From Aureococcus anophagefferens (Eukaryota; Sar; Pelagophyceae; Pelagomonadales; Pelagomonadaceae), in assembly GCF_000186865.1 (NCBI RefSeq), contig NW_008705569.1, positions 1,002,054 to 1,066,053 on the forward strand: a stretch of DNA of 64,000 nt, given 5' to 3'. A program made the position numbers and the translations under genes. Positions within the stretch are counted from its first letter, which is position 1; every line of letters begins with the position of its first letter. The notes under the pieces are model-generated. The model ran no database searches. It worked only from the letters and a program-made list of their open reading frames with translations, and was not told where the DNA came from. Of the stretch, positions 8,238 through 64,000 are shown one piece after another.

Positions 8238-9973
8238 ATGCGGGCCCTGCGCAACGGCGGCCTGCGCGGGTCGCAGTCGCAGAAGGTGCTGCCCGGCGCG
8301 GACGGCGCGGCCATGACGGCGTCGCGGCCGCGGCCCGCGACGGTGCCCGCGCAGCACGCCTACGTCTTCGTGCGGTCCGCGTCGCCGGAGCGGCAGCAGG
8401 AGCTCGCGCAGCTCGCCGCCGCCGCGGGCTTCGCCGCGCGCGTCCACGCGACGTCGGAGTCGGCGCTCGACGAGCTCGCGGCGATCCTCGCGCCGAACTC
8501 GCGCGAGGGCCTCCCCGCGGCGATCCTCGTCGACGTCTTCGACGAGGACGGCGACGGCGCCATCGACCAGGCGGAGATGTCCTGGCCGCTGCTGCGCATG
8601 GTCCAGCGGCCCCACGCGCCCTACGACGAGCGGTTGAAGCGCGTCTTCGTGCTCGTGATCTCGGAAACGGTCGCCGCGTCGCCGCGGCTCACGCTCGACG
8701 CGTTCGGCGCGGGCGCGCGCATGGTCACGCCGAGCGACGACGACTGCAAGCACGCCCTCGAATTGTTACGGTTAACATCCGTCAAAACCCCCGGGCAGAC
8801 GGCGAAGCGGGCCATGGTCCGCTGCCCGACGTGCGGCCACGGCCGGGGCAGCAAAAGAGAGCAAAATTCCCAACTTCAAAGGCTCAGGCCGTTTTCCACT
8901 CGTTTCGGCTGATTTTTGGACGAGCGATCATCTCTCGGAACGGCCTCGAAGCGTGGATGCTTTTTTTGGAACGCGCGCGCGCGGAACACTCACGTTGAAG
9001 CGACATTGAATCACCCTTTTGCTGCCCAGGCCACGGCGGCATGACGCACGCGCAGCTCTTCGGCCACTACTCGCTCTGCCACGTCGCCGAGCCCGGCGGC
9101 GACGGCCAGTGCCCCATCTGCCAGCGCGTCTGCCGCCGGGGCCACGGCTTCGAGTCCTTCGCGAAGCACCTGTGCGCGAAGCACCAGCCCGAGAACGCGG
9201 ACGCGGACGGCGACGGCTTCATCTCCAAGCGCGAGCTCCACGGCGCCATGGCGTCGACGGCCGCGACGTCGACGAAGTCGAAGAAGAACCTCAAGTCCCA
9301 GTTCATGGCCGACGCGGCCGCCGTCGACTTCCGGAGCCCCTACGTCGCCTACGCGTGGCTCGTCGTCCGGCGGCCGTCCGACGGCAAGTACCTCATGGTC
9401 CTCGAGTCCGCGGCGACGCCGGGCTGCGGCGGCAAGCCCTGCTACTGGCTCCCCGCGGGCAAGGTCGACCCGGGCGAGACGCTCGTGGAAGCGGCGGTTA
9501 GGTGCTGCGCTCGCGACACGCACGTGACCGTCGAGCCCAAGGGCCTCCTCCGCGTCATGCTCGAGCCCACGGAGAAGAAGACCGTGCGGGCGATCTTGTA
9601 CGCGGAGCCCGCGGCGGGCTGCGACGACCCGGCCGTGACCTGCCCCAAGTCCTGCCCGGACTTCCACAGCGTCGGCGCGTGCTGGGTCGACCTCGACGAC
9701 CTCGCGGAGCTCCACGAGACCGAGTTCCGCCACCCGGACCCGCCCGTGCTCTTCCCGGCCGTCGAGAGCGGCGCCCTCGTGCCCCAGTCCCTGGACCACG
9801 CGGCCTGGCACGACCTCGAGCGCACCGTCGCCGAGCTCACGTCCACGGACGACGACGGCGCGCGCGCGCGGCTCATCCCGCCGGTCTGGGACCAGATCGT
9901 CCGCGCCTACCGCGCCCTCGCCGTCCACGCCGCGACGACCGTCGCGCCGGCCATGGGCATCCAGATGCACTAA
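8238..9973 (+). CDS. Zinc-finger, EF-hand and degenerate Nudix multidomain protein, split by an introner
   Basis: Inferred model: exon 1 8238-8835 and exon 2 9030-9973, 513 residues. Exon 1 holds an EF-hand loop (DEDGDGAIDQAE). A first C2H2-like finger (CPTCGHG, then H...H after splicing) spans the junction, so the introner landed inside a zinc finger. Exon 2 holds a second CPIC...H...H finger, a second EF-hand loop (DADGDGFISKRE), and a Nudix fold (AYAWLVVRR..., WLPAGKVDPGETLVEAAV). The Nudix box keeps the first Gly and Glu, but the RExxEE core is replaced by RCCARD, so catalysis is doubtful. The product may be a Ca2+-responsive binding protein. Frame is restored exactly when the element plus one 8-bp repeat is removed. 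Confidence 0.8.
8844..9029 (+). mobile_element. Introner A1 (family A), 186 bp, in the zinc-finger/Nudix gene
   Basis: Left end CGGGGCAGCAAAAG and right end CTTTTGCTGCCCAG are inverted repeats (13 of 14). The flanking direct repeat GCCACGGC lies at 8836-8843 and 9030-9037. The inferred intron is 8836-9029: a GC donor at the start of the first repeat and the CAG of the right end as acceptor. Splicing joins CPTCG to HGGMTHAQ in frame. Confidence 0.93.
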
Positions 9974-10236
9974 TCATTCGATCGCTGCAACTTGCTTCAA
10001 GTGGAGGCGAACGAAATGAGGCGGCCTCGCACCCCGCGGGCGTACTCATCTGAGGTGCCGGGCCTCACTGCAACTTGACTTCAACGGGGGCACGCGCGAT
10101 CTTTGGGTCGGAGGAAGGGGCCGGTGTGGGAACGCCAACCCCCCGGCTACGCCTCCGTCTGAGCCTCCGGGCGGGATCTTCGGGTGCGCACCCCCTTCAA
10201 TAACTAGTCCAACGGGGGCAAACCAGGTCGGGGGGC

Positions 10237-11457
10237 ATGGCGCCTCTGGCATCGAAGCCCTGCGACGACGTGCCGCAGCACAGCGCAACCACTGATGCGC
10301 CGCTCGCGAAGCCGCGCGATGCGCCGCTGAAGCGCCGCGCGACGACGGCCGCGGCGACTGGCGCCTCGCCAGCGGCCGCGACGCCGGCGTCGCCGCTCCA
10401 AACGACCGCTCCCGCGACGCCGGCGGCGCCGCAACGAACAACTACGCCACTCCAAACCACCGCTCCCGCGACGCCGGCGACAAAAGCGACCGCGCCGCTC
10501 CGGCGCCAAACGACGACTGAAACGCACGGCGGCGCGTCCGTCGCCGCCTTGTTCGCCGGCGGCTGGGTCGCCGGCGCCGCCGCGGAGCTCCTCTACGCGC
10601 ACCCGCTCGGCACGGCGATAGCGCACGCGCGCCACGAGACGGGCCTGCTGCTGACGTGGCGCGCGGGCGCCGTCGCCGGCGCGGGCGCGGCCGCGCGCGC
10701 GGACTACGTCGGCGCCGCGAAGGAGCTCGCGCGGCGCGAGGGCCCGCTCGCGCTCTGGCGCGGCGGCCTGGTGCCCGTCGTCGCGAGCTCGGCCGTCGGC
10801 GGCGTCGCCTTCGCCGCCTACGGCGTCCTCCAGGCGCGGCTCAAAGCGCTCGGCGACCGCGCGTCGCGGGCCTGCGCGGGCGCGCTGACGGGATGCGCCG
10901 TCGCGCCGCTCGTCGCGCCGCTGGAGCTCGTCGCCGCGCGGCTCCAGCTGTCGCCGGCGGCGCTGCCCGCGTCCCCCGTCGAGCGCCTCGCGGCGCGCGC
11001 GACGCTGGCCTGGCACGGCGCGCCGCTGCTGTCGCCCGCGGCGGTGCTGCGGCGCGGGGGGCCGGCCGCGCCCTGGGCGGCGGCGCGCGCGGTCGCGTGC
11101 CGCGAGTTCTTTTTCTTCCTGCCCTACTACGCCGTCTTCCACGACGTCGAGGACCGCGCGCTCGCGGCGGGCGCGCCGCGGCGCGCGGCCGTCGCCGTCG
11201 GCGGCGCCGCCGCGGGCGCCGCGGGCGCGGCGCTCGCGGCGCCCGCGGCGCACCTCGCGCGCGTCCGCGCGAACGAGCTCGAGGCCGCGCTCCGCGCCTC
11301 GGACACGCCGCCCGCGCCCGCGCGCGCGGTGGTCATGGGGCTCGCGCGCGACCGCGCGCGCCTCGCGAGGCACGTCCGCGTCGCCGCGCTGCGCGCGGTC
11401 CCGCCCAACGCGCTCGCGTTCTCCGTCTACGTGGCGACCATGGACCTCGTCGGCTGA
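10237..11457 (+). CDS. Mitochondrial carrier (SLC25)-like membrane protein
   Basis: 406 residues from ATG 10237. The first ~100 residues are a Thr/Pro/Ala-rich leader with a near-perfect internal repeat (PLQTTAPATPA twice, DNA near 10393 and 10447). The rest has the three-fold carrier pattern: Gly/Ala-rich odd helices (LFAGGWVAGAAAELL..., CAGALTGCAVAPL...) followed by basic loops, with degenerate P-x-[DE]-x-x-[KR] signatures (HPLGTAIAHAR, APLELVAARLQ) and EG-type motifs (AKELARREGPLALWRGG). Such carriers exchange metabolites across the inner mitochondrial membrane. The signatures are weak, so the substrate cannot be guessed. Ends directly against the stop codon of the convergent neighbour. 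Confidence 0.65.
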   Translation: MAPLASKPCDDVPQHSATTDAPLAKPRDAPLKRRATTAAATGASPAAATPASPLQTTAPATPAAPQRTTTPLQTTAPATPATKATAPLRRQTTTETHGGASVAALFAGGWVAGAAAELLYAHPLGTAIAHARHETGLLLTWRAGAVAGAGAAARADYVGAAKELARREGPLALWRGGLVPVVASSAVGGVAFAAYGVLQARLKALGDRASRACAGALTGCAVAPLVAPLELVAARLQLSPAALPASPVERLAARATLAWHGAPLLSPAAVLRRGGPAAPWAAARAVACREFFFFLPYYAVFHDVEDRALAAGAPRRAAVAVGGAAAGAAGAALAAPAAHLARVRANELEAALRASDTPPAPARAVVMGLARDRARLARHVRVAALRAVPPNALAFSVYVATMDLVG

Positions 11458-12261: not shown

Positions 12262-12457
12262 GTGACGACGCGTCGCAACTGTGAGAAGACGACGAGCGCC
12301 GACGGCGGCGGCAGAGAGAATGATTGTGATGCGCCTGTGCCAGTGGCAAAAAAATTGCCTCAGGACCCCCCCTGAAGTCCCACTCAAGACAAAGAGGCAC
12401 GGAAGTAGCGCGTCGCCCCGTCGGGCGGATCTAGGATAATTTATATTAAATTTTGAT

Positions 12458-13479: not shown

Positions 13480-13539
13480 CTACCAGCCCATGCTCGATGC
13501 GTTTTTTGAATGGTCACCTTTACGGCAAGTTAACGTTAA

Positions 13540-14766: not shown

Positions 14767-14931
14767 GGCTGCGCAATGCTTGCGCTGCGCCTTGCACCAC
14801 GGAGTGCGACGATGGCTGCGAGAGATGGCTGCGAGTGTTTTGAGGGCTGCAATATGAAGTTCAACTTGCCTCGTCATATCGGGCTGCCAGCATGGGATGC
14901 GAGCTTTTGGCATAATTGAGGCGGCTGAGAC

Positions 14932-16377: not shown

Positions 16378-16410
16378 CGTCGCAATCTAGAGACCGCGGT
16401 CGAATACGGG

Positions 16411-20690: not shown

Positions 20691-23600
20691 TCAGGGGAGG
20701 GGCTCGAGGACGAACGCGTCGGCCTCGAGCACGCGGCCGTCGTCGCGCGCGCGGACCTCGACGGCCGCGGTCCAGCCGTCGCCGGCGAGCCAGGCCGCGT
20801 CGGCGCCCGTGGCCCCGGGGAAGACGAAGTAGTCCGTCTTCCCGTCGCGGAGGCGCGCCGCGCCGCTCCCGTCGGCGTTGGCCTCGAGGTCGCGCGGCGC
20901 GAGCTTCACGGCCCGCCCGAACTTGGGGACCTTGACGGCGACGAAGGCCGTCGCCGCGATGTTCAGGGGCGCGTGGTCCGGCCCCGTGAGCCAGGCCTCG
21001 ATGGCCCCGTCGCCCGCGAGCTTCATCTCGAGGTAGCCCGCGTCGTCGCCGCTCACGTGGAGCGGCGCGAGGATGCCGCCGCGCGTCGGCGCCGCGTCGC
21101 CGCGCGTGGCGACGCGGGCCGCGTCGCCGCCCGTGACCTGGAGCACGAGGACGGGGCCCGCGGTCGGCGCCACGAGCGTCCAGACGTCGCCGTCGCGCTC
21201 GACGTCGCAGTCGCCCAGCTTCGCGCCGGCGCCGTCCTCGAGCCACGCGTGCGCGACGACGGGCGCGCCGCCGGCGCCCGCGGCGCCTAAGAGCGTCGCC
21301 GCGAAGTGGCCGCCGCGCCGGTCCACGGCGAACTTGGCGCCGCCCAGGGCGACGCAGCCGAGGCCCACGCGCCCGGCCGGGAACGGCGGCGGCCCCGCGG
21401 GCGCGCCGGCCGCCGCCGCCGCCGCCGCCGCGCCGACGGCGGCCGCCGCGGGCACGGCGGACGCCGCCTCCGGCTCGGGCTCCGGCGGCGCCTCCGGCTC
21501 GGGCGCGGCCTCCGCCTCCGGCGCGGCCTCGGGCTCCGGCGCGGCCTCGGCCTCCGGCTCCTCGGGCGCCGCGGGCGCGGCCTCGAGCGCCGAGGCCATG
21601 GCCGCGAAGGGCGCCTCCGCCGCCGCGGGCGCCTCCGCCTCCGCGGCCGCGGGCGCCTCCGCGGCCGCGGCCGCGGGCGCCTCTGGCTCAGCGACCGCCT
21701 CCGCCGCCGCGGCCGCCCCGGCAGCCGCGGCCGCCTCCGGCTCGGCGGTCGCCTCCGGCTCGGCCGCCTCCGCCGCCGCGGCCGCCTCCGGCGCGGCGTC
21801 CGCCTCCGCGGCCGCGGGCGCCTCCGCGTCCGCGGGCGCCGCGGGCGCGGGCGCGTCGCCGTCGATCTGCGACGCGAGCCAGTCCTCGTAGCCCTCCGGC
21901 GCCTCGCCGAGGCTGAGCTGCTTCGACTTGGTCTTCTTCTTCACCCGCTTCGCCGCCGGCGACGCGTCGTCGATGACGATCTCCTTCTCGAGGATGGGGT
22001 CCTGGGCAGCAAAAGGGTGATTCAACGTCGCTTCAACGTGAGTGTTCCGCGCGCGCGCGTTCCGGAAAAAGCATCCACGCTTCGAGACCGTTCCGAGAGA
22101 TGATCGCTCGTCCAAAAATCAGCCGAAACGAGTGAAAAATGGCCGAGATCGAAGCCTTTGAAGTTGGGAATTTCGCTCTCTTTTGCTGCCCTGATGGGGT
22201 CCTCGACGTCGACGTCGGGGCTCTCGGCCTCGTCCTTCTCCACGAAGTCCGGCGAGCTCGACCGGAAGTGGAGGTAGGCCATCGCGAGGAAGCCGAGGAG
22301 CAGGAACGCGCCGACGACGACGAGGAGGATCACCGTGCCGCTCGCGGCGTCCGCGCCGCCGTCGTCGTCGTCCTCGTCGGCGGCGGCGGCCGCCGTCGTC
22401 GCCTTCGCGGGCGCGGGCGTCGGCCGGGGCGCCGGCGCGGGCGCGGGCGCCGCCGTCGGGTGGCCGGGGACGACCGTCGGCCGCCGCGACGGCGCCGCGG
22501 TCGTCGGCCGCGGCGCGGGCAGCGGCGGCTTCGCGCCGGTCTTGACGACGACGCGGTAGGTCGACGACGACGCGAGGAGCTCCCTGGACGCGTCCGCGTC
22601 GACGGTCGCGCCGGCCATCGACGTGCCCTCGAGCGCGGCCTCGAGCGCGCCGCCGGCGTCGACGGCGCCCTCGAGCTCGTCGACGAGCGCGTCGAACGCG
22701 GCCGCGGCGTCGCCCTCGTGGGCCGCGAACGTGAGGACCGTGAACGACACGACGGCGCCGCCGTCGTCGAGGCGCCGCCGCGCGGCGGACGCCGCGGACG
22801 CGCGGAGCACCTGGTCCGGCGAGTTGAGAGAGTCCACGACCTCGACGAGCGCGTCGGCGAAGGCGTCCGCGTCGAAGTCGTCGACGGCGAGGTCCTCGAA
22901 GACGATGCTCGCGTTGACGCCCACCGCGACCTGGGACGACGGGCCGTGCGACGAGAAGAAGAAAGGAAGACGCGGGAATCGCGGACGAGGGGCGCGGACG
23001 GCGCGGGCGACGCGGACGGCGCCGCGGTCGGCGTCGACGTCGGCGCCTTCGTCGGCGTCGGGTGCGGCGGGTCCGTCGGGCAGCCGCAGGCCTCCGGGCA
23101 GGCGTCGGCCGCGAGCGAGCCGTCCGCGCCGACGACGTCGCAGCGGTCGGGCACAAAGTCGGCGACCCAGGCGCAGTCCTTCCAGGTCGCGCCGTTCTTG
23201 TACCAGCTCGGCGAGTCGACGCAGGGGATCGTCGGCGCCGCCGCGGGCGCGGCGCTCGGCGCGGACGGCGCGGGCGTCGGCGCGGGCGCGGGCGCGGCCG
23301 TCGGCGCGGGCGCGGGCCTCGCCGTCGGCGCCGCGGAGGGCGCGGCCGTCGACGGCCGCGGCGTCGGCTCCCGGGACGGCGCCGCCGTCGGCGCGGGCGA
23401 ATAGGACACGGCGAAGGCCGCGGTTTCCGCGGCGACGTCCGAGTCGACGCAGGACAGGTCGAGCGCGTAGGTCGCGGCCTCGGCGTTCGACGAGACGACG
23501 ACGGACCCGCCGCCCGCGTTGTCCACCGTGTTCGAGTCCACCGGCTCGCCGTCGCGCGATACGACGACGAGCACCTCCTCGCAGGCGCCGGGCGCGCCCG

Positions 23601-28975: not shown

Positions 28976-31388
28976 ATGATGATGAAGGGCCTGCTCCACA
29001 GCTGCGCCCACTGCGGCGTCGCGGCGGAGAAGAGCTATCGATGCTCGGGCTGCAAGCAGGTGACGTACTGCTCCAAGGCCTGCCAGCGCGGCGACTGGCC
29101 CGAGCACAAGATCCAGTGCGAGAGCGTCGAGGAGGCGCTCCTGGCCAAGTCCGGCGAGGGCGACCGGAACGTCGGCGCCGCGCGCGTCGAGGCGCGCGCG
29201 GCGTGGGCCGCCGCGGCGCTCCAGGCCCTCGTCGCCCTGGCCTGGCTCCTCGGCGCGACGGGCGCGCTCACGGTCGTGGACCGCTGCGCGGGGAAACTCC
29301 TGGCCCTCGCGGGCGCGACGGTCGGCCGGTCCGGGCCCGTCACGCTCTGGTCGCTCGGGCTCCTCGTGGCGTCGATCATCGCGCGGTCCGCCGCGGGCCA
29401 GGCCCTGCTGCGGCGCGCGAAGATTCTGGCGTCCGCGGGCGTCGCCGTCTACGAGCTGCGGCGCGCGCGCAAGTACGACGACGAGCACCACTTCAAGAGC
29501 TGCGGCATCTTCGTCGCGCGCACGGTCGTCGAGCTCGGCGGCCTCTGGGTGAAGACGGCGACCTACGCGTCGGCGCGCCTCGACGTGCTCCCGCGGGCGC
29601 TGGCGCTCGAGCTCGCCCACTGCGCGGACCGCGTGCCCGCGGCGCCGCTCGCGGGCGAGCGTCGCCGGTACGCGGAGCGCGCGCTCGGGCTCGAGGCCCT
29701 CGTCGGGCCGCGGGGCGACGGCGACGGCCTCGCGCCCTTCGCCGCGCTGGACGAGACGGCGGCGGCGGGCGCGTCCGTGGCGCAGGTGCACCGGGCCGAG
29801 GCGTACGCGCCCGCGTCGGACGATCAGGGCGGCGACACGATCCAGGTCGCGCTGAAGCTGGCGCGGCCGGGCGTCGACGTCCTCTTCGAGGCGGACCTGC
29901 GCCTGCTCTATTTCCTGGTGTGGCTCGCGACGGAGTTTTTCGAGACGGACCTGAGGTACCTGCGCGCGTCCGCGGCGTCGTACGCGTCCGCTTGTCGGCG
30001 CGAGCTCGACTTCCGGCGCGAGGAGGCGAACGCGCGGGACCTGCGCGAGTCGCTCGAGTCGCTGCCCGGCGGCGGCGTGTCCCTGCCGGAGATCCTGCCC
30101 CAGTACACGCGGCGGACGATGCTCGTGATGTCGTTCGCTGTGTGGAAATCAACCACTGGTTTGGGGGGTCCCCACCAAACTTCAGAACTCTCTAGCTCGG
30201 TCAAATCGAAGTCGATTCGGCTGATTTTTGGACGAATCGATTGCTCTCGTTGAGTTCTCGAAGCACGGCAGAAGATCTCGTGTCGAAACCGTCGCATACG
30301 CTCACGTTGAAGGCGGGTTGAAGATTTGATTTCCACACAGGTCGTTCGAGGCGGGCTTCCGAGTCGACGACGTCGGCGAGCTCGAGGAGCACAAGATCGC
30401 CAAGGCCGCCGTGTTCCGCCGGCTGGCGGCGGCGCTCGCCCACGGCATCTTCGCCGAGGGCTTATTTCACGGCGACCCCCACGCGGGCAACGTCCTCGTG
30501 CGCCCGAACCCGGAGCAGGCCGACGGCTTCGACCTCGTGCTCCTGGACGGCGGCGCCGTCGAGCGGCTGGACGACGACGTGCGCGCGGCCTTCGCGGGCT
30601 GCGCCTACGGCACGGCGACGCAGGACCCGAGCTTCCTGCGCGCGTCGCTCGACGCGCTCATCGCGGCCGCGGGCCTGGGCGCGGACGACGGCACGCGGAA
30701 GGCGCTCATGCGCGTCTTCGTCTTCCTGCTCCACGACCCGGCGTCGGGCGCGGGCGCGGCGGCGCGGCGGCGCGCGAACGTGAAGCACCCGTCGCCCTTG
30801 CTCGAGGACGACGGCCGCGCGCTGCCCGAGAGTCTGGTCGCGGTGCTCCGGGCCGCGTCCGTGCTCCGGGGCCTCGCCGCGGCGCTCGACGTCGCGTCGT
30901 GCTTCGCCGAGGAGGTCTGCAAGGCCTGCGTGCGCGGGCTGCCCGCCGCGCGGGACCTCGAGCACTGGAAGCTCGGCACGGGCTACGTCGGTCCGACGGT
31001 CCGGAAGGCGCCGGCGAAGCGGTCCCTCCACCGCGCGGCGGCGTCCATGCGCCGCTCCGCGCCGTCCTTCTCCGACGTGCCGCCGCTCTGCCCCGCGTCG
31101 CCGCCGGGCGCCGCGGCGCGACCGGCGGACGACACGGGATTCTTCGTCGTCCGCGGCCGCCGCGTGTCGGGCCTCGAGTGGATCCGGTCGCGCGCGGGCG
31201 ACGCGCGGGCCGCCCTGCGGCGCGCGGCGCGCGTCTGCGCCTACCACGACGTCGCGCTCATCCGCATCTCGCCCGAGGAGCCCGAGCCGGGCCAGCCCGA
31301 CGAGGACGACGACGACGACGAGGGCGACTTCGACGACATGTCCAGCTTCGACTCCGTCTTCGACTCCGAGCTCCTGGAGGCGCTCTGA
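28976..31388 (+). CDS. MYND zinc finger fused to an ABC1/UbiB-type atypical kinase, split by an introner
   Basis: Exons 28976-30129 and 30341-31388, 733 residues. Residues about 9-47 are a MYND finger (CAHCG...CSGCKQVTYCSKACQ...H...C). Two hydrophobic segments follow, then the ABC1K domain: ELGGLWVKTATYASARLDVLP, AAAGASVAQVHRAEAY, VALKLARPGVDV (lysine), CRRELDFRREEANARDL, MLVMSFEAGF across the splice junction, GLFHGDPHAGNVLV and VLLDGGAVERLD. The hallmark KxGQ motif reads KTAT and the metal-binding DFG reads DGG, so the active site is altered. ABC1 kinases act in coenzyme Q or plastoquinone metabolism in mitochondria and plastids. A MYND fusion is unusual. Confidence 0.85.
30138..30340 (+). 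mobile_element. Introner B1 (family B), 203 bp, in the MYND-ABC1K gene
   Basis: Perfect 15-bp terminal inverted repeats CTGTGTGGAAATCAA. The exact 8-bp target repeat GTCGTTCG lies at 30130-30137 and 30341-30348. The intron is 30130-30340: GT from the first target copy, CAG from the right end. Splicing restores MLVMSFEAGF. Confidence 0.97.
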
Positions 31389-34767: not shown

Positions 34768-36627
34768 TTACCTCAAGGATCCGTCCGTCAACCCGCGAAC
34801 CTTCGCGGCCGCGTCGGCCACCGCGGCGTCGTCGAGGTCGAGCGCGCCCGTGAAGGTCGCCTCCGCGTCCGCGGCGGCGTAGGCGTGGCCGAGCGCGCGC
34901 GCGAGCCACTCGTAGGTCCGGTTCGCTCGACCAACGACGGGGAACTCGAGGACGCGGCAGCCCTCCGCGGCGAAGACGAGGTTCGCGAGGCCCGCGCCGT
35001 GCGCGCCGACGACGAGCCCCGCGGCGCCGAAGAGCGCGATCTGCGCCGCGAGGCTCCGCGGCGCGTCGTCGAAGGCGACCCAGGTGTACCGCGGCGCCGC
35101 GGCCTCGAGCGCCGCGAGGAGCGCCGCTCCGTCGGCGAACGCGCGGTCGCCGCGCCGGAGCACGAGGATCGCCGTCGTCGGCGCCGTCGGCCGCGCGAGC
35201 GCCGCCCGGAGCGCCCGCGGCGCGGACCGCGGCGGCGTGTAGAAGTCCCAGAGGGACCGCGGCGCGTCGCACGCGCCGGCGTCCAAACCGCGCGACTCCG
35301 TCCGCGCGACCGTCGCGCCGTCGAGGACCCAGGCCCCCGCGGGCAGCGCGAGGGCCTTCGTCAGGTCCACGGGCCGCCAGCGCTCGACGCGCAGCAGCGC
35401 CAGGGCCTCGGCGTAGAGCGCGAGGCACTGGTTCGCGGGCACGAGGAGCGTCGCGCCGCGCGGGAGCACGCCCGCCGAGGCCGCGCGGGCCACGCGCGCG
35501 AGGAACTCGAGGAGGCAGTGGTAGTAGTTGCCCGGCTTCGACGCGGGGACGAGGATCACCGGTTCCGGCGCCGCTCGCTCCGGCGCGTAGTCGCGGGGGT
35601 CGACCTTGTCGCCGTCGCAGCCCGGCGCGAACGGGTCGCCTTCGCCTGGGCGGGAAACAGGGTGATGCAACGTCGCTTCAACGCGCGTGGTCCGCCCGCG
35701 CGCGTTCCAAAGAAAAGATCCACACTTCGAGAGCACTCCAAGAGATGATCGCTCGTCCCGAAATCAGCCGAAACGAATGGAACGCGGCCGAGATAGAAGT
35801 TGGGAATTTCGCACCCTTGTCGCGCCCCGTCCTTCGCCGCGGCGGCCGCAGTGGATCGCCGCGTCGTCGAAGATGACCGGGTTGGGTCCCAGGACGCCGA
35901 GGCCCGGCGAGCGCAGCCAGGCGAGGACGACCTGGCCGTCGTCGACGCGCACGTCGTCGTAGGCGGACCGGAGCGTTCGCCGGAGCTTCGCGGCCGCGGT
36001 CTCCGCGGCTCGCCTCCGGAGCGCGAGGCCCTCGGGCGCGGCCGACGCGTGGAAGAGGTAGAAGCGGTGCGCGAGGGCCGCGTCGGCGCCGGCGAGCGCG
36101 ATGGCGCCGGCGTAGTCGCCGCAGTGGTACGCGCAGAGCGCCGCGGCCGCGCCGTGCGCCGCGCCGTCGCCTCCGCCGTCGACGCGCGCGAGCCACGCGA
36201 AGGCCTCTCGGGCCGCCGCGTAGCGCTCGCGGCGCCGCTCGAGGCGCGCGTAGACTAGGACGACCTCCCGCGCCCGCACGTCGCCTCCCGCGCCCGCGAG
36301 CGACGCCGCGGCCGCTTTCGCGACGGCCGCCGCCGCGCGCGAAAAGCCCGCGCCGCCCTCGGCCCTGCGCCAGGATGCGCCGTCGCGGCGCGCCTCGCCG
36401 CGCCGCCGGCCGCGCACGACCGTGACGTCGTACATGGCCAGCCAGGAGTTGAGGTAGAGGCAGACGCCGTCGAGGGGCAGGTCGGCCGTCGCCGCCGCCC
36501 AGGCCTCGAAGCGCCGCGACGCCATGTCCGCGCGGCCGGCGTGGCGCAGCAGGAGCATGGCCTCGAAGAGCGGGCCGGGCAGGCGCGTGCGGGCGTCGTC
36601 CATGGACACGGACGCGAAGCAGCTCAT
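34768..36627 (-). CDS. GT61-like (DUF563) glycosyltransferase, split by an old introner
   Basis: Inferred exons 36627-35838 and 35645-34768, 555 residues. The N-terminal exon is helical and Ala-rich, TPR-like at best. The second exon carries the GT61 signature: PGNYYHCLLEFLARV, VLRRGDRAFADG (an R-x-x-x-R phosphate-binding-like strand), and GAAGLVVGAHGAGLANLVFA followed by CRVLEFPV. GT61 enzymes add xylose or GlcNAc in the Golgi; here no signal anchor is visible at the chosen ATG. The intron uses a GC donor from the target repeat. Joining gives RRGEGDPFAPG in frame. Confidence 0.8.
35646..35829 (-). mobile_element. Introner A3 (family A), 184 bp, diverged, in the GT61-like gene
   Basis: Body matches family A with several substitutions. 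The left end in window orientation is CTGGGCGGGAAACAG; the other end is CGCCCCG. The target repeat is GCCTTCGC versus TCCTTCGC, 7 of 8 matching, as expected of an older insertion. In gene sense the intron starts GC and ends CCAG. Confidence 0.88.
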
Positions 36628-45500: not shown

Positions 45501-48500
45501 GTGGCGGTGGCTCTCGACCTGCTCCTCGAGGGGCGCCGTCTTCTGGCGGTAGAGCGCGCCGACGTTCTTCGTGACCTGCGTCGGCTTCTTCGCGCGGAGG
45601 TGGAGCGTCATGGCCCAGGCCACCGTGAAGTGCGCCTTGACGTCCGAGCGGAACGCGTCGACGGCCGCGCGGCTCCGCCGCGTGCCCGCCATGGCGAACT
45701 CCGTCACCGCGAGCGAGTGCGCGTCGCCGAGCGCGAGCTGGCGGCAGCGGCAGTGGCTCGGGATGGACACGAGCGCGGGGATCACGATGTCCTCGGCGAC
45801 GGACGCGGGCCGCGCGTCGCCGAGCTGGCCGCAGGACTGCTGGCCCCACATGTAGACGGCGCCGGACACGGTCAGGGCGCCGGACGCGGCCATGCCCGCG
45901 GCCACGAAGCAGATGTCCATGCCCGCGAGCGACTCGACGCGCGTCGGCGTCGCGCGCGCCTGCGTGGAATTCAAATATTCAACCCGACTTCAATGTGAGC
46001 ATACGCGACAATTTCGACGCAACCTCTTCGGCCGTGCTTCGAGAACTCGACGAGAGCCATCGATTCGTCCAAAAATCAGCCGAATCGACTTCGATGTGAC
46101 CGAGCTAGAGAATTCTCAAGTTTGGTCAGGACCACCCAAACCAGTGGTCGATTTCCACACGGGCGCGCGCGGCCTTGGAGCCGATGCCCAGCTGGCCGTA
46201 GGAGTTGTCGCCGAAGGTGAAGACCTCCTTCGTCGACGTGAGGACGACCGTGTGCGACCCGCCGCACTCGAGGACCGTGCCCCGCGTCCGCGCGCCGTCG
46301 AGCTTCCGCCGCCGCGGCAGCCGCACGGCCGCGAACGCGTCCGTGACGCCCTTGCGCCCGACCTGGGCGATCTCGCCGCAGGTCAGCACGCGCCCGGCGA
46401 CGTCCAGCAACGCGCTGTGGAAGCCGCCGCAGGAGACCTGCTGGAAGTCGACGCCCCGCATGTCCTCGACCTCCGTGGGATCTTCGACGACGGACACCGT
46501 CGCGGCGCCGTGGACGCGCCGGAGCTGGTGGCCGAGCCCCAGGGCGCCGCCCCGGTTGTTGCCCCAGCTGAAGAGCCGGTTCTCCGTGACCTCGGCGCCG
46601 TTGGCCATCGTCTCCGTGACTTCGCCGAAGGCCACCGTGAACAACGACCCGCAGTCGACGAGGAGCACGGCCGCCCCCCGCTCCAGGGGCCCCTTGACCC
46701 GCTGGGGCTTGCAGCGCGACTGGCGGTCGCCTAAACCGAGCTGGCCCATGGAACCGTTGCCCCAGGTGTAGAGGTGGCCGAGGCTCGACAGCGCGGCCGA
46801 GTGCATGGACCCGCACGCGATGGACGACACGTTGATGCGCGGCTCGAAGAGGTCGATGCCCCGCGTGACCTCGCGCATCTGGTCCCGGCGCTTCAGGTCC
46901 GCCCGCGCCTTGGCGACGGCGGCCTCCGCCGCCGCGCGGTCCGCGTCGAGCTCGCGCTGTTTTTTACGGAGGAACTCCTCCCGCGTGAACGCCAAATGGT
47001 CCTCGTGCGTCTCCTGCTTCTCGTCGTCGTCGTCGCGGCCGAGGATGCGCGCCTCGAGCTCCTCGATCTCCGCCGCGGACTTGCCGCGGCGGTCGACGAT
47101 GTAGGACGCGCGCCGCGCCGCGGCCTTCGAATGGTCGACGTCTCCCGTTGACCCGCGCCGCGCGTCCCCCAGGCCCGCCTCGCCCCGCTCGTCCTCGGCG
47201 AGCTTCGCCTTCAGCTTCGCCGCGAGCTCCGCGGCGTCCACGGCCGTCGACGCCGCCGACGACCGCCGCAGCGAGCTCCGGCGGCGGTCGAACGCCGACT
47301 CGAAGACGGGCTGTTCCACCACCGACTCGGACACCGTCGACGCGTCGTCGGAGAGCTCCGCGGAGACGTGGCGCGGCGGCAGCTCGAACTTGACGAGCTC
47401 GAGGCCGTTGACGCTGCCGCCCTCGCGGCCGAGGCCCAGCTGGCCGTTCTCGTTGAGGCCGCACGCGTAGACGCGGCCGTCGTAGCAGAGCACCATGGAG
47501 TGCTGGCCGCCCGCGGCGACCTGGAGGATCGTGTCGTGGTCGCCGGGGCTGCCGCCGTTGCGCGCGCCGTGGCGCGCGGAGAGCGTCGTCTCCGCGTAGC
47601 GCCGCACCTGTGTGCAAATCAACCAGTGAGCTGGGACGTCGGGGCCAAACTTGAGAATTCTCTAGCTCGGTCAAATCGAAGTCGATTCGGCTGATTTTTG
47701 GACGAATCGATTGCTCTCATCGAGTTCTCGAAGCACGGCCGAAGAGATTTCGTCGAAACTGTCGCGTACGCTCACATTGAAGGCGGGTTGAAGATTTGGT
47801 TTCCACACAGCGCCGCACGGCGTCGCGGTCCGGCGCGATGTCCGAGTCCGAAGAGATGTTGTCCGCGACGGACTCGGAGAGGTCGTACCACATGGGGTAG
47901 CCCTCGTCGACCTTTGGGGCGGCCTCCTCGGCGGGCGCGTTCGACGGCTCCGACGACGCGTCGCCCGCGAAGCCGAAGGTCTTCGCGACGGCCGCGGCGA
48001 CGGCCGTCGGCCGTTGGCCCCCGTTTTTTCGCCCGAACTCCGCGGGCGACGCGAGCTTCACGAGCTGCTGGGCGACGCCGGCCATGCGCGCCATGGCGTC
48101 GTCGCAGTGCTTCGGGAAGCGCATCTGGTAGTAGTTCTCCGACGTCGCGCGGCCCCGCTCGCCCCGCTGGCCGGAGCCGCCCGCGCCGAACGCGATGAGG
48201 CTCTTCGACGTCGACTCCACGAAGTTCACGAGCAGCGTGGGCATGACCTTGTTGAAGCGCACGTCCACGGAGTGGCAATAATGTTGGATGGCCACGGTCG
48301 CCGTGTTCTCCGCGGCGCGCGGGTCGTCGTGCGACTCCGTCACCGAGAGCACGGCGACCTGCACGAGCTCGCGCCACTTGTCCGGCTCCACGCGGAACTC
48401 GCAGGGCCGCACCTCGACGAGCGGCGACCGCGCGGACACGGTCACGCGCACCGTGGCCTCGGGCTTTTCGCTCAGGCGCACGCCGTAGTACTCGTCGCAG

Positions 48501-53593: not shown

Positions 53594-53633
53594 CACTTCT
53601 CCTTACGGCGCCAAACCCGGCGCCGCCGCGAGC

Positions 53634-57042: not shown

Positions 57043-57158
57043 CGTGTTTTGATGTTTACGGTTCTTGACGTTTGCACGATATATCGCAAACACGATTCTC
57101 AGGGCAGCCCGTGTCCAAGCGCGTCTGCGCGGCCGCCGGCGCCGTCCCCGACCGCGCC
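57043..57158. promoter_or_regulatory. Compact bidirectional promoter with a palindromic box
   Basis: The only intergenic DNA between two divergent starts. It is AT-richer than its surroundings and contains GTTTGC-ACGATATATC-GCAAAC (57070-57091), an inverted repeat with a TATA-like centre. A regulatory role is inferred from position and symmetry. Confidence 0.45.
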
Positions 57159-58744
57159 ATGGGGTTTAAGGCGGACCGGCAGAGCTGCACGTCCGTGTCG
57201 CAGCCCGAGCCCTTGCGGGTCGTCGTCATCGGCGGCGGCCCCGCGGGCCTCGCGACGGCCATCGGCTTCGGGAACTTCGGGCACAAGGCCACGGTCATCG
57301 AGAAGCGCGCGAGCCCCGCGGACATCGGCACGGTGGACCGGGACCGGAGCTACCCGGTGGACGTGACGGCCCGCGGCATGGCGGCCCTGAAGGCGCTGGA
57401 GATCGACGAGGCCGAGCTCCGGGGCCGCGGGTTCCTCCACGTCTTCAGGGGCCACGCGGCGATGGACGGCGCGACGGGGCGGATCGCGCGGAAGATGCCG
57501 CTCCCCGGCGGGCGCACGGGCCTCATCGGCACGCGCGACGACGTCGTCCTCGCCTTCGAGCACTACCTCAAGGGCCGCAAGGACTGCGACGTGACGCTCA
57601 AGCACGAGACGACCGTCGTCGAATTCGACACGGACCGCCAGACCGTGACCTGCAGCGACGGCTACTCCATCCCCTACGACCTGCTCGTGGGCGCCGACGG
57701 CAAGAACTCGCCGACGCGGGCCTTCTTCGCGGAGCGCGACACGCGGCTCCTCGTGACGCCGCGGAAGGGCCGCGTCGGCGAGGTGCGCTACAAGACGTTC
57801 AACCTGGACGTCGCGGAGAAGCTGGACGTGCTCGAGGAGGGCTGGCTCTACGGCGTCGGCGGCCCGCCGCCGGACAACCCCGTCGTGTCGCGGACGCCGC
57901 TCTTCGACGCGGACCTCCGGAAGGTGGGCCGCGGCGTCGGCATCGTCCCCGTCAACGACGCGCCGTCGGACGCGCTCTCGAGCGCCTTCGCGCTCTGCAA
58001 GTCCGAGAGCGACCGGTCCCTGCTCCACAGCAAGCTGCCCAAGAAGCTGTTAGCGGCGAGCACGGAGGCGGAGCGGCAGAGCTTCGAGACGCGGTGCCTC
58101 AGCGACGCGTCCGGCGGCTTCGTCGCCTCCAAGCTCTACAGCGGCCACTGCGCCTTCGTCGGCGACGCCGCCGTGTCGCCCGCGCCCGCGGGCCAGGGCG
58201 TGAACCACGCTTTGGACGCCGCCGCGAGCCTCGTGACCCACAGGGCAGGAAAAGGGTGCGACATTCCCAACTTCAAAGGCTCATATCTCGGCCGTTTTCC
58301 ACTCGTTTCGGCTGATTTTTGGACGAGCGATCATCTCTCGGAACGGTCTCGAAGCGTGGATGCTTTTTCCGGAACGCGCGCGTGCGGAACACTCACGTTG
58401 AAGCGACATTGAATCACTCTTTTGCTGCCCAGGTGACCCACTTCGACGCGGTCCACTTCGACGTCGAGCACGGCCTCGAGCACTGGAACGACGAGCGCAT
58501 GCCCGACGAGGAGGCCTACGCCTTCCTCTCCGACGCGAACAAGCCCCTCTGGGTCCAGACCGCCGTCGACGCCGCGGCGCTCGTCGGCGCGCACCGCGAC
58601 GGGCCCTACATGAAGCAGACGGAGGAGCGGTACCGCGACCTCACGACCGTCCACGTCCAGCTCGGCTACATCGCCATCCCCAAGCCCCCGCCCCCGAAGC
58701 ACGACGACGACGACCTCGCGGACCTCCAGGGCCTCGCGGGCTAG
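57159..58744 (+). CDS. FAD-dependent monooxygenase, kynurenine-3-monooxygenase-like, split by an introner
   Basis: Exons 57159-58232 and 58433-58744, 461 residues. The FAD-binding Rossmann motif VVVIGGGPAGLATAIGFG near residue 22 is followed by VIEKR, a middle DLLVGADGKNSPTR (the second FAD motif), and FVGDAAVSPAPAGQGVNHALDAA near 335 (the ribityl-binding GD motif). The order and spacing match aromatic hydroxylases of the UbiH/KMO group. The substrate is not predictable. The intron falls right after the GD motif; removing the introner plus one target copy gives AASLVTHFDAVHFD. TTG-initiated extension to 57072 is not supported. Confidence 0.86.
58241..58432 (+). mobile_element. Introner A4 (family A), 192 bp, in the monooxygenase gene
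   Basis: Ends CAGGGCAGGAAAAG and CTTTTGCTGCCCAG. The exact target repeat GTGACCCA lies at 58233-58240 and 58433-58440. The intron 58233-58432 uses GT from the first target copy and CAG from the right end, phase 0. Confidence 0.96.
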
Positions 58745-58889
58745 GGCGGGGGGGGGCTGGTTTTACTCGTCGAGGGGTCTCGACGATCGGCGAGCGTTTT
58801 CACTTGGTAAAAATCAAAAACAGAATGGCAGAAGGTGCTCCGCGCCACTAAGCAGGTGCCGGTGTGTGAGAAGGTGTTGAGATTTGCCG

Positions 58890-59818: not shown

Positions 59819-60870
59819 GACGGGAGGAGCTTCGGCGACCCCCAGACGTTGGACCCGAGGCGCGAGTCCGCCGTCGGCTGCATGGGGTTGATCTGGCCCG
59901 CGGTGCCCGTGAGCGTGCGCAGCGCGCAGTACGAGTTCAGCTCGCCGTCGCGGACGAGGCCCATCATGGTCTCGTCGATGGCCTTGGCGCAGGACGCGCC
60001 CTCCGTTTTCGCGAGGAGCTTCTCCGCGCCGCGCCGCGAGACGACGTAGGCGACGGTGCCCCAGGTCTCGAAGGCCCGCTGCACGTGTTTCGCGCCCGGT
60101 AGCGGCAGGTCCCGCTTGCACTGCGGGTGGTGGAAGAGGTAGCAGTGGTCCCAGAGGGCCGGGAGCTCGCCGAGGATGTTCGCGACCTCGGTGCGGAAGC
60201 CGTCGGCGACGAGGACGTCGTCCTCGAGGACCACCGCGTGGTCGAGGCCGTCGTCGACGACCTTCCGCCAGAGCGCCATGTGGCTGCACATGCACCCGAG
60301 CTGGCCCACGGTGCAGGCCTTGGCCCAGGCGGGCGCCAGGGTGACGGCCCGGGCGCGGAGGAAGGCCGCGAGCGCGGGGCTCGCGCCGTCCACGGCGTCG
60401 AAGACCTCCGCCTCGGGCAGCCTCCGGCGCGTGTAGGTCTCCGTGTGCCGCACGCGCGCGTCGTCGCGCGCGAGCGTCACGACGAAGACGTTGGCGAGCG
60501 GCGCGCCCTCGCAGGGCACGGCCGGGCCCGGCGCGGGCGGCGCCGCGGGCGCCGCGGCGGCGGGCGCCGCGGCGGCCGGCGCCGACAGCCGCCGCCGCGC
60601 GGCGGGCTTCGGCGCCGCGGCCGCGCGGCGCACGAAGAGGTCGCGCTCCGCCGCCGTCGACGCGATGGGCGCCGCCGCGTCGACGCGGGCGCCGTCGGCC
60701 GTCTCGAGCGCGAGGTCGCCCGCGTCGACGCCCTCGCAGCGCTTCGCCACGGCCTTGAGCAGCCGCGCGCACGGCGACTCCTGCCAGGCCGCGGGCAGCG
60801 TCAGCTTCAGCGTCTTCGCCTCGAGGCCGCCGCCGCCGATGCAGTGCACGCTGACGACGCGACCCGCCAT
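59815..60870 (-). CDS. GT25-family glycosyltransferase (LOS/collagen-galactosyl-type)
   Basis: 351 residues from ATG 60870. The first ~85 residues form a ubiquitin-like or PB1-like fold (VVSVHCIGGGGLEAKTLKLTLP...LALETADGARV). A Pro/Ala linker follows, then the GT25 domain: VFVVTLARDDARVRHTETYTRRRL, VFDAVDG, GCMCSHMALWRKVVDDG, HAVVLEDDVLVADGF (metal-binding acidic motif), WGTVAYVVSRRGAEKLL and a final LRTLTGTAG block. GT25 enzymes add sugars such as galactose to glycans or hydroxylysine. The N-terminal UBL-like fusion is odd and there is no signal anchor at this start. Confidence 0.82.
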   Translation of the reverse strand: MAGRVVSVHCIGGGGLEAKTLKLTLPAAWQESPCARLLKAVAKRCEGVDAGDLALETADGARVDAAAPIASTAAERDLFVRRAAAAPKPAARRRLSAPAAAAPAAAAPAAPPAPGPAVPCEGAPLANVFVVTLARDDARVRHTETYTRRRLPEAEVFDAVDGASPALAAFLRARAVTLAPAWAKACTVGQLGCMCSHMALWRKVVDDGLDHAVVLEDDVLVADGFRTEVANILGELPALWDHCYLFHHPQCKRDLPLPGAKHVQRAFETWGTVAYVVSRRGAEKLLAKTEGASCAKAIDETMMGLVRDGELNSYCALRTLTGTAGQINPMQPTADSRLGSNVWGSPKLLPS

Positions 60871-61116
60871 CGTGAGTGGGCAGAGGCCACTATTGCCACG
60901 GTGGGTGGCCGCACATGGCGACCTGTTTTCGGGTGCACGCCCGCGCGGTACCCCTCCCGTCCCCGGAGGCCTCCCCAGAGGCTCAACCATCGCGGCCGCG
61001 GGCGAGTGAGAGCCCTGGAGGCCTGGCAGATGTTTCGAGGGGAGCTGCAGCAACGGGCGCGCCTAAGCTGAAGTGATCTTGAAGCACTTGTGAAGTTCAC
61101 GGGGAAGGCTGTTGCC

Positions 61117-62932
61117 ATGTTCAAGCCCGCAATGGGCGCGACGTCGTTCGTCATTCTTGCTTGGCAAATAGCCTTCGCCTACATACCACCGGTACCCATA
61201 CACCGCCCCGCCGTCGCGCTCCGCGTGGGCCGCCCGTCGCCGGGCATCGACTACGGCAGCTGGGACCCCGCCCAGCGCCCAAACCCCCTCGCGCCGCCGA
61301 AGAAGAGCAAGAGCCTGTTGGGCGCGCTCAACCCCTTCCGCCGACAAAAGCCGGCGGCGGTCGCTCAGGAGATCCCCATCGCGCCGTCGCCGCGGCGCGC
61401 GGCGCCCGTCGACTCGTCGGTCAAGTGGGGTCGGTCGGCCCCGGGGCGGCTCAACGACATCGCGCTCCAGAAGCTCGCGGAGCAGGCCAACGCCTACTCG
61501 CCGCCGGTCGCGGCGCCGCGCTCCGGCGCGGCGGGCGCGTACCACGCGTCCCCCGCGGACCGGCCTCCGCAGCGGCCGTACGGCGCGACGCCCGCCGCCG
61601 GGTTGGGCGCCGCCGGGTTGGGCGCGGCCGGACTGGGCGGCTCCGCCGACGCGGGGGCCTCCGAGTGGGCCGCCCGCCGCGCCGCCTCCGCCGCCGCCCC
61701 CCGCCAGCCGCCCGCGGCCGTCCGCCAGCCGCCCGCGGCCGCGCCGCCGCCGCCGCCGACCGGGCCGCGGACCGGGCGTTTCGGAAGGACGCCGCCCGCG
61801 CCGACGCCGAGTCCGAGGACGCCGGCCGCGTCGACGCCGAGTCCGAGGACGCCGGCCGCGTCGACGCCGGCGGAAGCGGCGCGCGCGCGCGCGCGGTCCG
61901 GTCCCCGTCCGGTCGACCAGTACGGCGCGGATTGGAAGCAGGGAGATAAGCCGCGCATCGACGACGACCGGCGCATGAAAAGCCCCGGCCTGCAGAACAA
62001 CTTCTACGAGACCTCGACCGCCGACTTCAGGCGGCCGCACGGCGCGGGGGGCGCGCCGCCGGGGGCGCCGCAGGGCCGCGCCGCGCCGCCGGCGCCCGCA
62101 CCGCCGTCGGCGCAATGGACCGGCCTCGACGCCGCGGACCGGTGGTTGAGCGAGGCCACGGGCGAAAGGTCGCCCATCGACGACGATCGGCGCATGCAAA
62201 GCCCCGGCCTGCAGAACAACTTTTACGAGAGCTCGACCGCCGACTTCAAGCGGCCGCACGGCGCGAGGGCCCCGCCTTCGGGCTTTCCCGAGCCGGGGGC
62301 GCCGCAGGGCCGGGCCGCGCCGGAGGTGTCCGCGTCAACGCCGGCGCCCATGCCGCCGCCGGCGCCCGCGCGGCCGCCGGCGCCCGCGCGGCCGTCAGTG
62401 GACGCGGCGTCGCGCGGCGCCGGCGCCGCGGACGCGCGCCTCGAGGCGGCGGCGGCGCGCCTCGAGGCCGCGGATCGCGCCCTGGGCGCCGCCGTCGCCG
62501 CGGCGGCGGCGCCCGTACCGCCGTCGGCGCAACAGACGGCGGTCCCGCGGCCCGAGGGCGGCACCTTCGAGGCCGCGAGCGAAAGGTCCGACGACGCGCC
62601 GGCCGTCGTCGCCGGCGCGAGCTACGACGTCGCCAACGCGGCCCTCGACGCCGCGGACCGGGCCGCCGCGGCCGTNNNNNNNNNNNNNNNNNNNNNNNNN
62701 NNNNNNNNNNNNNNNNNNNNNNNNNNNNNNNNNNNNNNNNNNNNNNNNNNNNNNNNNNNNNNNNNNNNNNNNNNNNNNNNNNNNNNNNNNNNNNNNNNNN
62801 NNNNNNGCGTCCGTGGCGGCCGCGGCGGCCGCGGCGTTGCCCGCCGGCTGGTCCGCGGCCGTGGACCCGACCTCGGGCAACACGTACTACTACAACGGCG
62901 CGGAGACGCGCTGGGACGCGCCCACGGCCTAA
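61117..62932 (+). CDS. Secreted low-complexity protein with conserved 30-residue repeats and a C-terminal WW domain; assembly gap inside
   Basis: ATG 61117 starts a signal peptide (MFKPAMGATSFVILAWQIAFA). A GRLNDIALQKLAEQANAY motif shared with the 58.9-kb gene lies near residue 110. Pro/Ala-rich DNA with short tandem repeats (SPRTPAAST twice) follows. Two copies of IDDDRRM[KQ]SPGLQNNFYE[TS]STADF lie at 61957 and 62176. A 131-base N gap interrupts the frame. The final exon segment after the gap encodes a WW domain (LPAGWSAAVDPTSGNTYYYN...TRWDAP) and a TAA stop at 62930. The frame before and after the gap differs, so the true gap length is not 131. Function unknown; the WW domain would bind proline-rich partners. 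Confidence 0.7.
61957..62265 (+). repeat. Two ~90-bp coding repeats, period 219 bp
   Basis: Units at 61957-62046 and 62176-62265 encode nearly identical IDDDRRM-SPGLQNNFYE--TADF-RPHGA blocks. More copies may be hidden in the assembly gap. Confidence 0.85.
62676..62806. other. Assembly gap (N run)
   Basis: 131 undetermined bases inside a repetitive coding region. The reading frame on the two sides is inconsistent with exactly this length. Confidence 1.
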
Positions 62933-63227
62933 GAGCGATGCGGAGCGTCTTCGCCACAGGTGCCGTCTCTCCACCTGCAGGTTCCTCGCGCGCTCGGGGT
63001 CGCACGTCGACGTGGCAATGTTGACGCACGAGTCCTTCAGGTGGATCTCCGCGGCCTTGTTATATAGGTGCAGACCGCGCCCTCGGGCAGGACGCCGACG
63101 ACGGCAGCGCGCGCGCGCCGCCACAGTCCGACGCCAGAATCGACTCGAGCGGAGAGCTGCTGCTTCACAAGGTTGAACGCGCAATCCACGCTGCCGACGG
63201 CGGTGAGCGCCGCGCACGACGCGAAGC
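62933..63227. other. Intergenic region with TATA-like box
   Basis: 295 bp without a clear frame. TTATATAGG at 63059-63067 is a plausible core promoter for the gene at 63228. Nothing else recognisable. Confidence 0.35.
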
Positions 63228-64000
63228 ATGACGACGTCGAGGACCCTGTCGACGGCTAGACGACCAGTGGTGATCGCGTTGGCCCTCTTACTCCGAACGT
63301 CGGCGCTGCTGCGTCCCGCCCAGCGCTCGACGCCGTTTCGCCACGGCAAAAGGAGGCCAGTGCGCGCGTCGACCTTCGACTCGGAGACGGCGCCGCGGCT
63401 CGAGGCGGCCGCCCCGCCCCTCGCCAACGGCACGGGCACGTTTCTCGAGCTCGAGGTGCCGGACCTCGCGCCCGCGCCACCGGCGGCGCCGCGGCCGCGG
63501 GTCACGGCCGCGTACCTCAAGCGGAAGCTCTGGACGAAGCTGGACTTCGCGCACTCGCACGCCGTGAGCGGCGCGGCCTTCCTCGCCCTGGGCGTCGGCT
63601 GGCTCGGCGCCGTCGCGCGGGGCGAGGCCGCGGGCGCCGTCGAGGCCGGCGCGCGCATCCACGGGGGCCCCGCGTCGCTCGCGATCCTCGCCGTCGGCGT
63701 CTGGAACAGCGTCTCCGCGCTGCCCATGGCCTCGGACGAGCGCGTCTACGTGACGCGGGACCTGGACCGCTACCACGCGCTCGCGTTCCGCTGGGGCGGG
63801 TCCGCGCAGCTCGTCGCCTGCGCGTGGCTCTCAGGGCAGGAAAGGGTGATTCAACGTCGCTTCAACGTGAGTGTTCCGCGCGCGCGCGTTCCGGGAAAAA
63901 AGCATCCACGCGTCGAGAGCGCTCCGAGAGATGATCGCTCGTCCAAAAATTAGCCGAAACGAGCGGAAAACGACCGAGATGGGAGCCTTTGAAGTTGGGA
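63228..64000 (+). CDS. Plastid-targeted-like membrane protein (5' part), interrupted by an introner at the window edge
   Basis: Coding from ATG 63228 to 63823 is visible; the downstream exon lies outside the window. A hydrophobic leader (VVIALALLLRTSALL) and a basic transit-like stretch precede a conserved-looking block (YLKRKLWTKLDFAHSHAVSG) and two hydrophobic helices (AAFLALGVGWLGAVA, SLAILAVGVWNSVSALPM). Then comes YVTRDLDRYHALAFRWGGSAQL and a third hydrophobic segment cut by the introner. I do not recognise the family. It has the look of small thylakoid or envelope proteins. Confidence 0.6.
63832..64000 (-). mobile_element. Introner A5 (family A), partial, body inverted relative to the gene
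   Basis: Left end CAGGGCAGGAAAGG, then the family A body in reverse orientation up to the window end. The preceding 8-mer GTGGCTCT (63824-63831) is the predicted target copy and GT donor. Its second copy should lie just past position 64000, after a CAG. Confidence 0.88.

Follow-up and report, generated by a model that had tools for sequence, protein, structure and literature searches.

Eight insertions and the genes that carry them

The stretch of DNA analyzed here (the window) comprises 64 kb of Aureococcus anophagefferens, placed at C9:1002054-1066053 of the 49.05-Mb, 86-contig assembly over which all genome-wide counts were made. It carries eight short insertions with terminal inverted repeats (TIRs), which a preliminary description had read as transposon-derived introns (introners) of two families. 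All eight were found at the starts given there, by direct reading and then by pattern and profile searches, and profiles built without the window copies revealed no additional copy of family A or B in the 64 kb (next matches, E 0.17 and 0.95). Five insertions belong to family A (8844-9029, 22002-22193, 35646-35829, 58241-58432, and 63832-64024) and three to family B (30138-30340, 45960-46162, and 47608-47810). In gene sense, family A elements run C[A/G]GGGCAGCAAAAG...CTTTTGCTGCCCAG over about 192 bp, with C/G and A/C variants within the repeat, and family B elements run CTGTGTGGAAATC...GATTTCCACACAG over about 203 bp. The inverted ends are real in all eight, yet position 2 of the family A repeat never matches between the two ends of a copy (0/37 of the sampled copies introduced below). 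Direct repeats of 8 bp had been claimed for seven insertions; seven of the eight do have target site duplications (TSDs) that agree at 8/8 positions, the copy at 63832 among them, and the copy at 35646 agrees at 7/8.

Each predicted intron consists of the element together with the gene-sense 5′ copy of its TSD. Intron 1 (family A, plus strand, 8836..9029) joins the TSD copy at 8836-8843 (GCCACGGC) to the element at 8844-9029, is followed by the second TSD at 9030-9037, and would be a GC-AG intron of 194 nt in phase 1. Intron 2 (family A, minus strand, 22002..22201) comprises the element at 22002-22193 and the TSD copy at 22194-22201 (GACCCCAT in gene sense); it would be a GA-AG intron of 200 nt, and a GT lying 6 nt upstream is an in-frame alternative donor. 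Intron 3 (family B, plus strand, 30130..30340) lies inside an ABC1 kinase domain and is formed by the TSD copy at 30130-30137 (GTCGTTCG) and the element at 30138-30340, giving a predicted GT-AG intron of 211 nt. Intron 4 (family A, minus strand, 35646..35837), in a gene with a glycosyltransferase 61 domain, comprises the element at 35646-35829 and the TSD copy at 35830-35837 (GCGAAGGA, the other copy being GCGAAGGC), a predicted GC-AG intron of 192 nt.

Introns 5 and 6, both of family B and on the minus strand, share one gene. Intron 5 (45960..46170) interrupts RCC1-like repeats and comprises the element at 45960-46162 and the TSD copy at 46163-46170 (GCGCGCGC), with predicted GC-AG borders and 211 nt; intron 6 (47608..47818) comprises the element at 47608-47810 and the TSD copy at 47811-47818 (GTGCGGCG), with predicted GT-AG borders and the same length of 211 nt. 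When both are left out, one frame of 1954 codons results. Intron 7 (family A, plus strand, 58233..58432), in a gene with an FAD-binding domain, would be a GT-AG intron of 200 nt made of the TSD copy at 58233-58240 (GTGACCCA) and the element at 58241-58432. Intron 8 (family A, plus strand, 63824..64000) is cut by the window edge. With the adjoining contig sequence (L089) its element is complete, 193 bp long, and ends 24 nt past the window at 64024, and the TSD GTGGCTCT stands on both sides (63824-63831 on the 5′ side) with 8/8 agreement; the predicted intron is GT-AG and 201 nt long.

Removal of the element and one 8-mer joins an open reading frame at all eight sites, one more than the seven for which this had been claimed. 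At the eighth, again with L089, the joined frame is open over 232 codons and is the longest of the three frames. Retention of any of the seven introns that lie wholly in the window brings a stop into the coding frame.

Independent support was obtained for three joins only, those at 8844, 30138, and 45960. The 30138 join is crossed by the Pfam ABC1 kinase domain, and the exact predicted join is present in protein P0009. The 45960 join is crossed by an RCC1-like match (PF25390) of 139 bits, for which the cut-off is 150, with RCC1 repeats above their cut-offs on both sides. At 8844, the homologues P0001 and P0003-P0007 continue across the join without inserted residues, although proteins cannot reveal introns in the DNA of these relatives. 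Two further joined frames hold Pfam domains that do not cross the join, glycosyltransferase 61 downstream of it at 35646 and FAD_binding_3 upstream of it at 58241.

In two genes, the window proteins are 96-100% identical over aligned columns to records of A. anophagefferens strains JL720, JL721, and JL722; BLASTP identities are 71-90%, lower where the strain models skip or add stretches. Public models of these other strains disagree with the predicted joins at three sites (8844, 22002, and 30138). At 8844, the JL722 model P0002 (JL722_7141) leaves out the element and 46 residues, corresponding to about 8723-9055 of the window, and these residues are kept by P0001 and, in part, by P0003-P0007. 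The omission reads as an apparently longer GT-AG intron having been chosen by the model; a GC-AG introner can therefore be mis-modelled, for which this is one example and gives no rate, and annotation should be read with the warning that it can misplace such introns. P0008 (JL721_5414) matches the flanks of the 22002 insertion and carries four additional residues (DPIC) precisely at the join (window 22194-22201). These would back-translate to one duplicate, CTGC, and the other duplicate, which the family A element of the window could not yield; JL721 may hold at this site a B-like element that begins CTGC|GTGG, or the residues may reflect an excision footprint.

Copies across the genome and the bases at their borders

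Both families are abundant. One A end pattern has 906 matches genome-wide against one for its control, one B end pattern has 774 against none, and an inner A end pattern has 1111 forward and 1136 reverse matches, which corresponds to roughly 1,100 or more elements. Median pairwise identity is 92% for A (33 copies) and 84% for B (20 copies). Copies from sampled loci and from the window were kept when the TIRs agreed at no fewer than 9/14 positions, the TSDs at no fewer than 6/8, and the length was 140-215 bp. Sixty-one copies passed (37 A and 24 B), and those that failed include copies in L010, L039, L046, L071, L072, L080, and L087. TSDs agree at 8/8 positions in 49/61 sampled copies and at 6 or 7 in the others, 6 being the entry limit. 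One copy had too little flanking sequence, leaving 60 for the frame test, 53 of them outside the window.

Coding frames were assigned with a codon model trained on window genes and applied to 240 bp of each flank, with N scored zero; five of the eight introns lie in the training genes, which makes the window copies partly dependent on the model. When the element and 8 bp were removed, both flanks had the same strand and frame in 55/60 copies (33/37 A and 22/23 B), compared with 1440/2000 random window positions (72%; Fisher p 3e-4). Of the introns in the 55 restored copies, 48 have lengths indivisible by 3. That every insertion sits in a reading frame and none between genes, as the preliminary description held, is true within the window but is weak by itself, because random window positions so often have consistent coding frames on both sides that 8/8 would arise by chance with a probability of about 0.07.

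The coding strand in each of the 55 restored copies is the one on which the element ends in AG and the duplication begins with G[TCA]. The dinucleotide at the TSD start is GC in 32, GT in 22, and GA in one, with no other; within the window the predicted donors are GC at 8844, 35646, and 45960, GT at 30138, 47608, 58241, and 63832, and GA at 22002. A GT or GC start occurs at 21% of coding background positions, against 54/55 here (p 2e-35). Observed-to-expected ratios are 9.2 for GT, 3.6 for GC, and 0.28 for GA, and the remaining 73% of the background is represented by 0/55 copies. Among GT and GC donors, GC falls below its supply (32/54, expected share 79%, p 0.001). TSD positions 3-8 show no motif relative to coding background starting with GT or GC (six tests, smallest p 0.14), which suggests, within the power of 55 copies, that a donor may need little beyond its two bases.

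The acceptor lies in the terminal repeat itself, which ends in ...CTGCCCAG or ...CCACACAG. The AG at the gene-sense 3′ end is intact in all restored copies (33/33 A and 22/22 B), and position 2 of the opposite end drifts, being G rather than A in 6/33 A copies and other than T in 6/22 B copies.

Introners also occur in clusters of two or three within about 0.5-1 kb, in L084 (297-1263, three B copies), L076 (612-1299), L020 (1325-2187), L088 (1074-1788), and L052 (1183-1647). At C1:2651791-2652535, two facing B ends stand 745 bp apart with one core between them, either a longer element or a nested insertion. In L010 (1501-1979, C1:618576-619054), a 479-bp element has family A ends of the form CA/CA, hence no acceptor, with another interior and no matching 8-bp duplication (2/8 positions).

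A probable route: becoming an intron on insertion

Anatomy, duplications, frame restoration, strand rule, and donor rule can all be read in the DNA. We consider them best accounted for, with a probability of roughly 0.9, by non-autonomous transposons with TIRs and TSDs that become spliceosomal introns on insertion, with AG supplied by the element, the donor by the TSD, and selection acting as the filter. The elements would be cut-and-paste transposons of about 190-205 bp, resembling miniature inverted-repeat transposable elements (MITEs) and making hAT-like 8-bp duplications. Each terminal repeat, read outwards, would present a ready acceptor, rich in pyrimidines and closing with AG (...CTTTTGCTGCCCAG in A and ...GATTTCCACACAG in B), and the donor would lie outside the element, as the dinucleotide that opens the 5′ copy of the 8-bp target duplication. 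With the donor at the TSD start and the acceptor at the element end, splicing would remove the element and one duplicate and thus return the original mRNA. Insertion itself would be blind to gene direction, and copies would be lost where the coding-strand duplication did not start with GT or GC (rarely GA) or where the AG end lay on the wrong side. From the sequence we infer splicing itself, selection as the filter, and mobilization in trans of the hAT type.

Several observations weigh against this reading. Contig C1 is the source of all 53 copies from outside the window, exact end or core patterns were used to find them, and a recognizable TSD was required; the sample favors young copies with clear duplications. 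One copy, L081, is a real misfit, with a duplication that begins with CG and flanking sequence that codes on the strand lacking AG, and the frame is not restored in four further copies, L030, L052, L064, and L083. No autonomous partner was found; the Pfam hAT dimerization domain occurs at four places, with 22-24 bits. The JL721 and JL722 models at 30138 hold four extra residues (SFAVSF), which puts the donor of intron 3 inside the element, and an internal GT or GC is present in 22/22 restored B copies.

The last two points bear on the alternative that survives best, in which the element carries both splice sites. The internal B donor would be CTGT|GTGG, the place inside the element at which back-translation of SFAVSF would put it, so that 12 nt (8 of the TSD and 4 of the element) would stay in the mRNA and four amino acids would be added. 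Introns of this +12-nt type have been described for another Aureococcus family in PMC9860276 (legend to Fig. 2F). Such introns would leave the GT or GC start of the duplication on the coding strand in 54/55 copies unexplained. In addition, the internal GT of family B is kept no better on the donor side (positions 5-6 are GT in 21/22) than at the other end (20/22), and P0009 has the exact join. We regard this alternative as improbable, at a little under one chance in ten. The JL720 model at 30138 is consistent with the same acceptor. Because the JL721 and JL722 residues back-translate to the first bases of the element and JL720 fits that acceptor, the gene models indicate that the 30138 copy is probably shared among strains.

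The preliminary description had left the choice between selection and target preference open. If the transposase picked G[T/C] in genes and selection for splicing were minor, the G that starts the duplication in 55/55 restored copies would be expected. The preference, though, follows the coding strand in every one of these copies, and an integrating enzyme has no means of recognizing that strand; read on the opposite strand, A copies start with GT or GC in just 13/37, and TSD positions 3-8 carry no motif. Since a transposase does not see which strand codes, the donor and strand rule must have been imposed after insertion, and selection for splicing is the best and simplest explanation of it, with which the lack of an extended motif at TSD positions 3-8 also fits. 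The selection half of the earlier statement thus stands, and target preference as the main cause is very unlikely; some weak bias toward genes or open chromatin may act alongside selection.

It is less likely still that these are ordinary MITEs that disrupt genes, with frame continuity as a by-product of the long open frames of 72% GC DNA. The 72% of random positions that are frame-consistent agree with such a by-product, whereas the strand and donor rule, the conserved AG at one end, and the domains and homologues that continue across joins do not. Spread as spliced RNA by reverse splicing rather than as DNA, for which the location of most sampled copies in coding sequence might speak, is the least credible in view of the 8-bp duplications, the inverted ends, and the B bodies with AG at both ends, which lie both ways relative to the gene (9 vs 7 of 16).

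Ends, bodies, and the search for a mobilizer

The two families differ in how their ends are built. In the sampled A copies, the ends differ at position 2 without exception (37/37), one end being CA or CG and the other CT, for which reason a description of the A ends as ordinary inverted repeats was rejected. Both ends are CT in 17/23 B copies, and B could be spliced in either direction because the same end occurs twice. Relative to the gene, A bodies lie one way in 21 and the other way in 12 of the 33 restored copies, so the asymmetry of the A ends does not follow body orientation, a second explanation that was rejected. A tree groups most of the 12, and by the tree labels the acceptor-bearing A end differs between subfamilies, with a few switches. 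Genome-wide, intron-sized A-type elements with CA/CA ends number none and those with CT/CT ends six. Of the latter, four have GC at the duplication start on the AG strand (one with diverged duplicates), two have duplicates out of register by one base, their reading depending on a single further base, and the frame was restored in 2/6.

Positions 9 and 11 of the A TIR also vary between copies (C/G and A/C), and the two ends of one copy agree there in 34/37 and 29/37, in line with a transposase that requires the two ends to correspond. In predicted RNA folds, the 30138 intron is better than its shuffles (z -2.8) and the 22002 intron is not (z -0.3), and the terminal stem forms in both; that structure guides splicing is a guess based on these models.

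The division into two families holds for the ends, which are unrelated, but not for the interiors, which are homologous. Local alignment of the A and B consensus sequences scores 55, the highest of 500 shuffles being 30. The A profile matches 20/20 B copies and the B profile 33/33 A copies from outside the window at E < 1e-5, and these alignments begin no earlier than position 25 and finish at least 17 positions short of the end, which leaves out both ends. The common core TTCGGCTGATTTTTGGACGA has 1822 exact occurrences genome-wide and none for the control. On this evidence, A and B are therefore one intron body with different transposon ends.

Taken together, the findings allow a broader proposal, which we put forward tentatively and think more likely wrong than right. 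A single intron body may have carried two or more pairs of transposon ends of unrelated sequence (A and B), each end a complete acceptor, so that the splicing function would have been inherited while the mobilizing transposase changed. The acceptor end of an A element would be set by the one base at end position 2, a choice that would have flipped between subfamilies. All the information in the donor would reside in two bases (GT > GC >> GA) standing invariably 8 nt from the element, and roughly two thousand surviving insertions would then constitute a natural saturation assay of 5′ splice-site tolerance, in which the terminal stem rather than an extended donor motif may mark the cut. The donor rule with its numbers, the fixed mismatch of the A ends, and the shared body seem worth the time of specialists. 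From the insertions that have survived, the tolerated donor bases can be read off, and selection can be told apart from target choice with no experiment needed.

Burst-like intron gain was an open problem for decades, and introners are its best-supported answer. A. anophagefferens is among the founding cases, its introner elements reportedly having been described by Huff, Zilberman and Roy in 2016 (Nature). The window families are very likely the A. anophagefferens introner families of that work, the two having been set side by side by description. The attribution of this class to Aureococcus in the preliminary description agrees with passages of PMC7789003 and PMC10228655; as introners are known in the same species, the phenomenon as such is already known. 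According to the passage of PMC10228655, the A. anophagefferens introners are likewise short stretches of DNA that bear TIRs and fixed-length direct repeats; one of the two splice sites lies in the element, the other comes from duplicated gene sequence, and insertions occur in both orientations. Their splice motifs are called canonical in PMC7789003, whereas 32/55 donors here are GC.

Outside this species, the introners of Symbiodinium microadriaticum, as given in the legend to Fig. 2B of PMC9860276, similarly have TIRs, carry the 3′ splice site, and take the 5′ site from the TSD, but their TSDs are 4 bp long instead of 8. Introner family 4 of an Aureococcus sp. Tara metagenome-assembled genome (MAG), as given in the Fig. 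2F legend, shares the genus and the 8-bp TSD; it is described as carrying both splice sites and leaving 12 bp in the mRNA, whereas the donor rule here points to the TSD. The Amoebophrya introner elements, as described in PMC7789003, resemble those of the window in that direct repeats span the exon/intron borders and inverted repeats can pair in RNA, and differ in their direct repeats of 3-5 nt (here 8 bp) and very diverse splice motifs (here GT/GC/GA-AG). The passages of PMC9860276, PMC7789003, PMC9481584, and PMC10228655 examined contain no statement of a common A/B body, of the A end mismatch, or of a GC majority, and the common body may well be in print.

As to the mobilizer, the 8-bp duplication and the family A start CAGGG point to hAT, and the other A end and the B ends do not fit. 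hAT elements have 8-bp TSDs and CA at positions 1-2 of both ends. The elements resemble hAT-superfamily MITEs in the duplication length, in the A start, and in having no coding capacity; they differ in that CT takes the place of CA at the gene-sense 3′ end of A, thereby creating the acceptor AG, and in that both B ends depart from the hAT pattern. With the patterns used, neither A nor B ends were found in any of the four 10-kb neighborhoods of the hAT domains. No match was obtained with a version of the A-end pattern in which the subterminal bases differ, and a search for KDZ transposases gave no match, its controls being likewise blank.

Two of the loci, L035 (C1:938600-948590) and L036 (C13:594800-604790), are 99% identical over 5.4 kb and contain a pair of hAT-like transposase open reading frames and a repeat-rich gene; for the C1 copy, no convincing TIR or TSD of its own was seen. 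A protein search with the hAT-like reading frame matched the two full copies, a fragment at 99% identity, and, weakly, two further sequences, the fragment lying at C25:342568-342897 inside an open frame of 4294 codons. In the window itself, a run of 131 N, either an assembly gap or a stretch of withheld bases, occupies positions 62676-62806.

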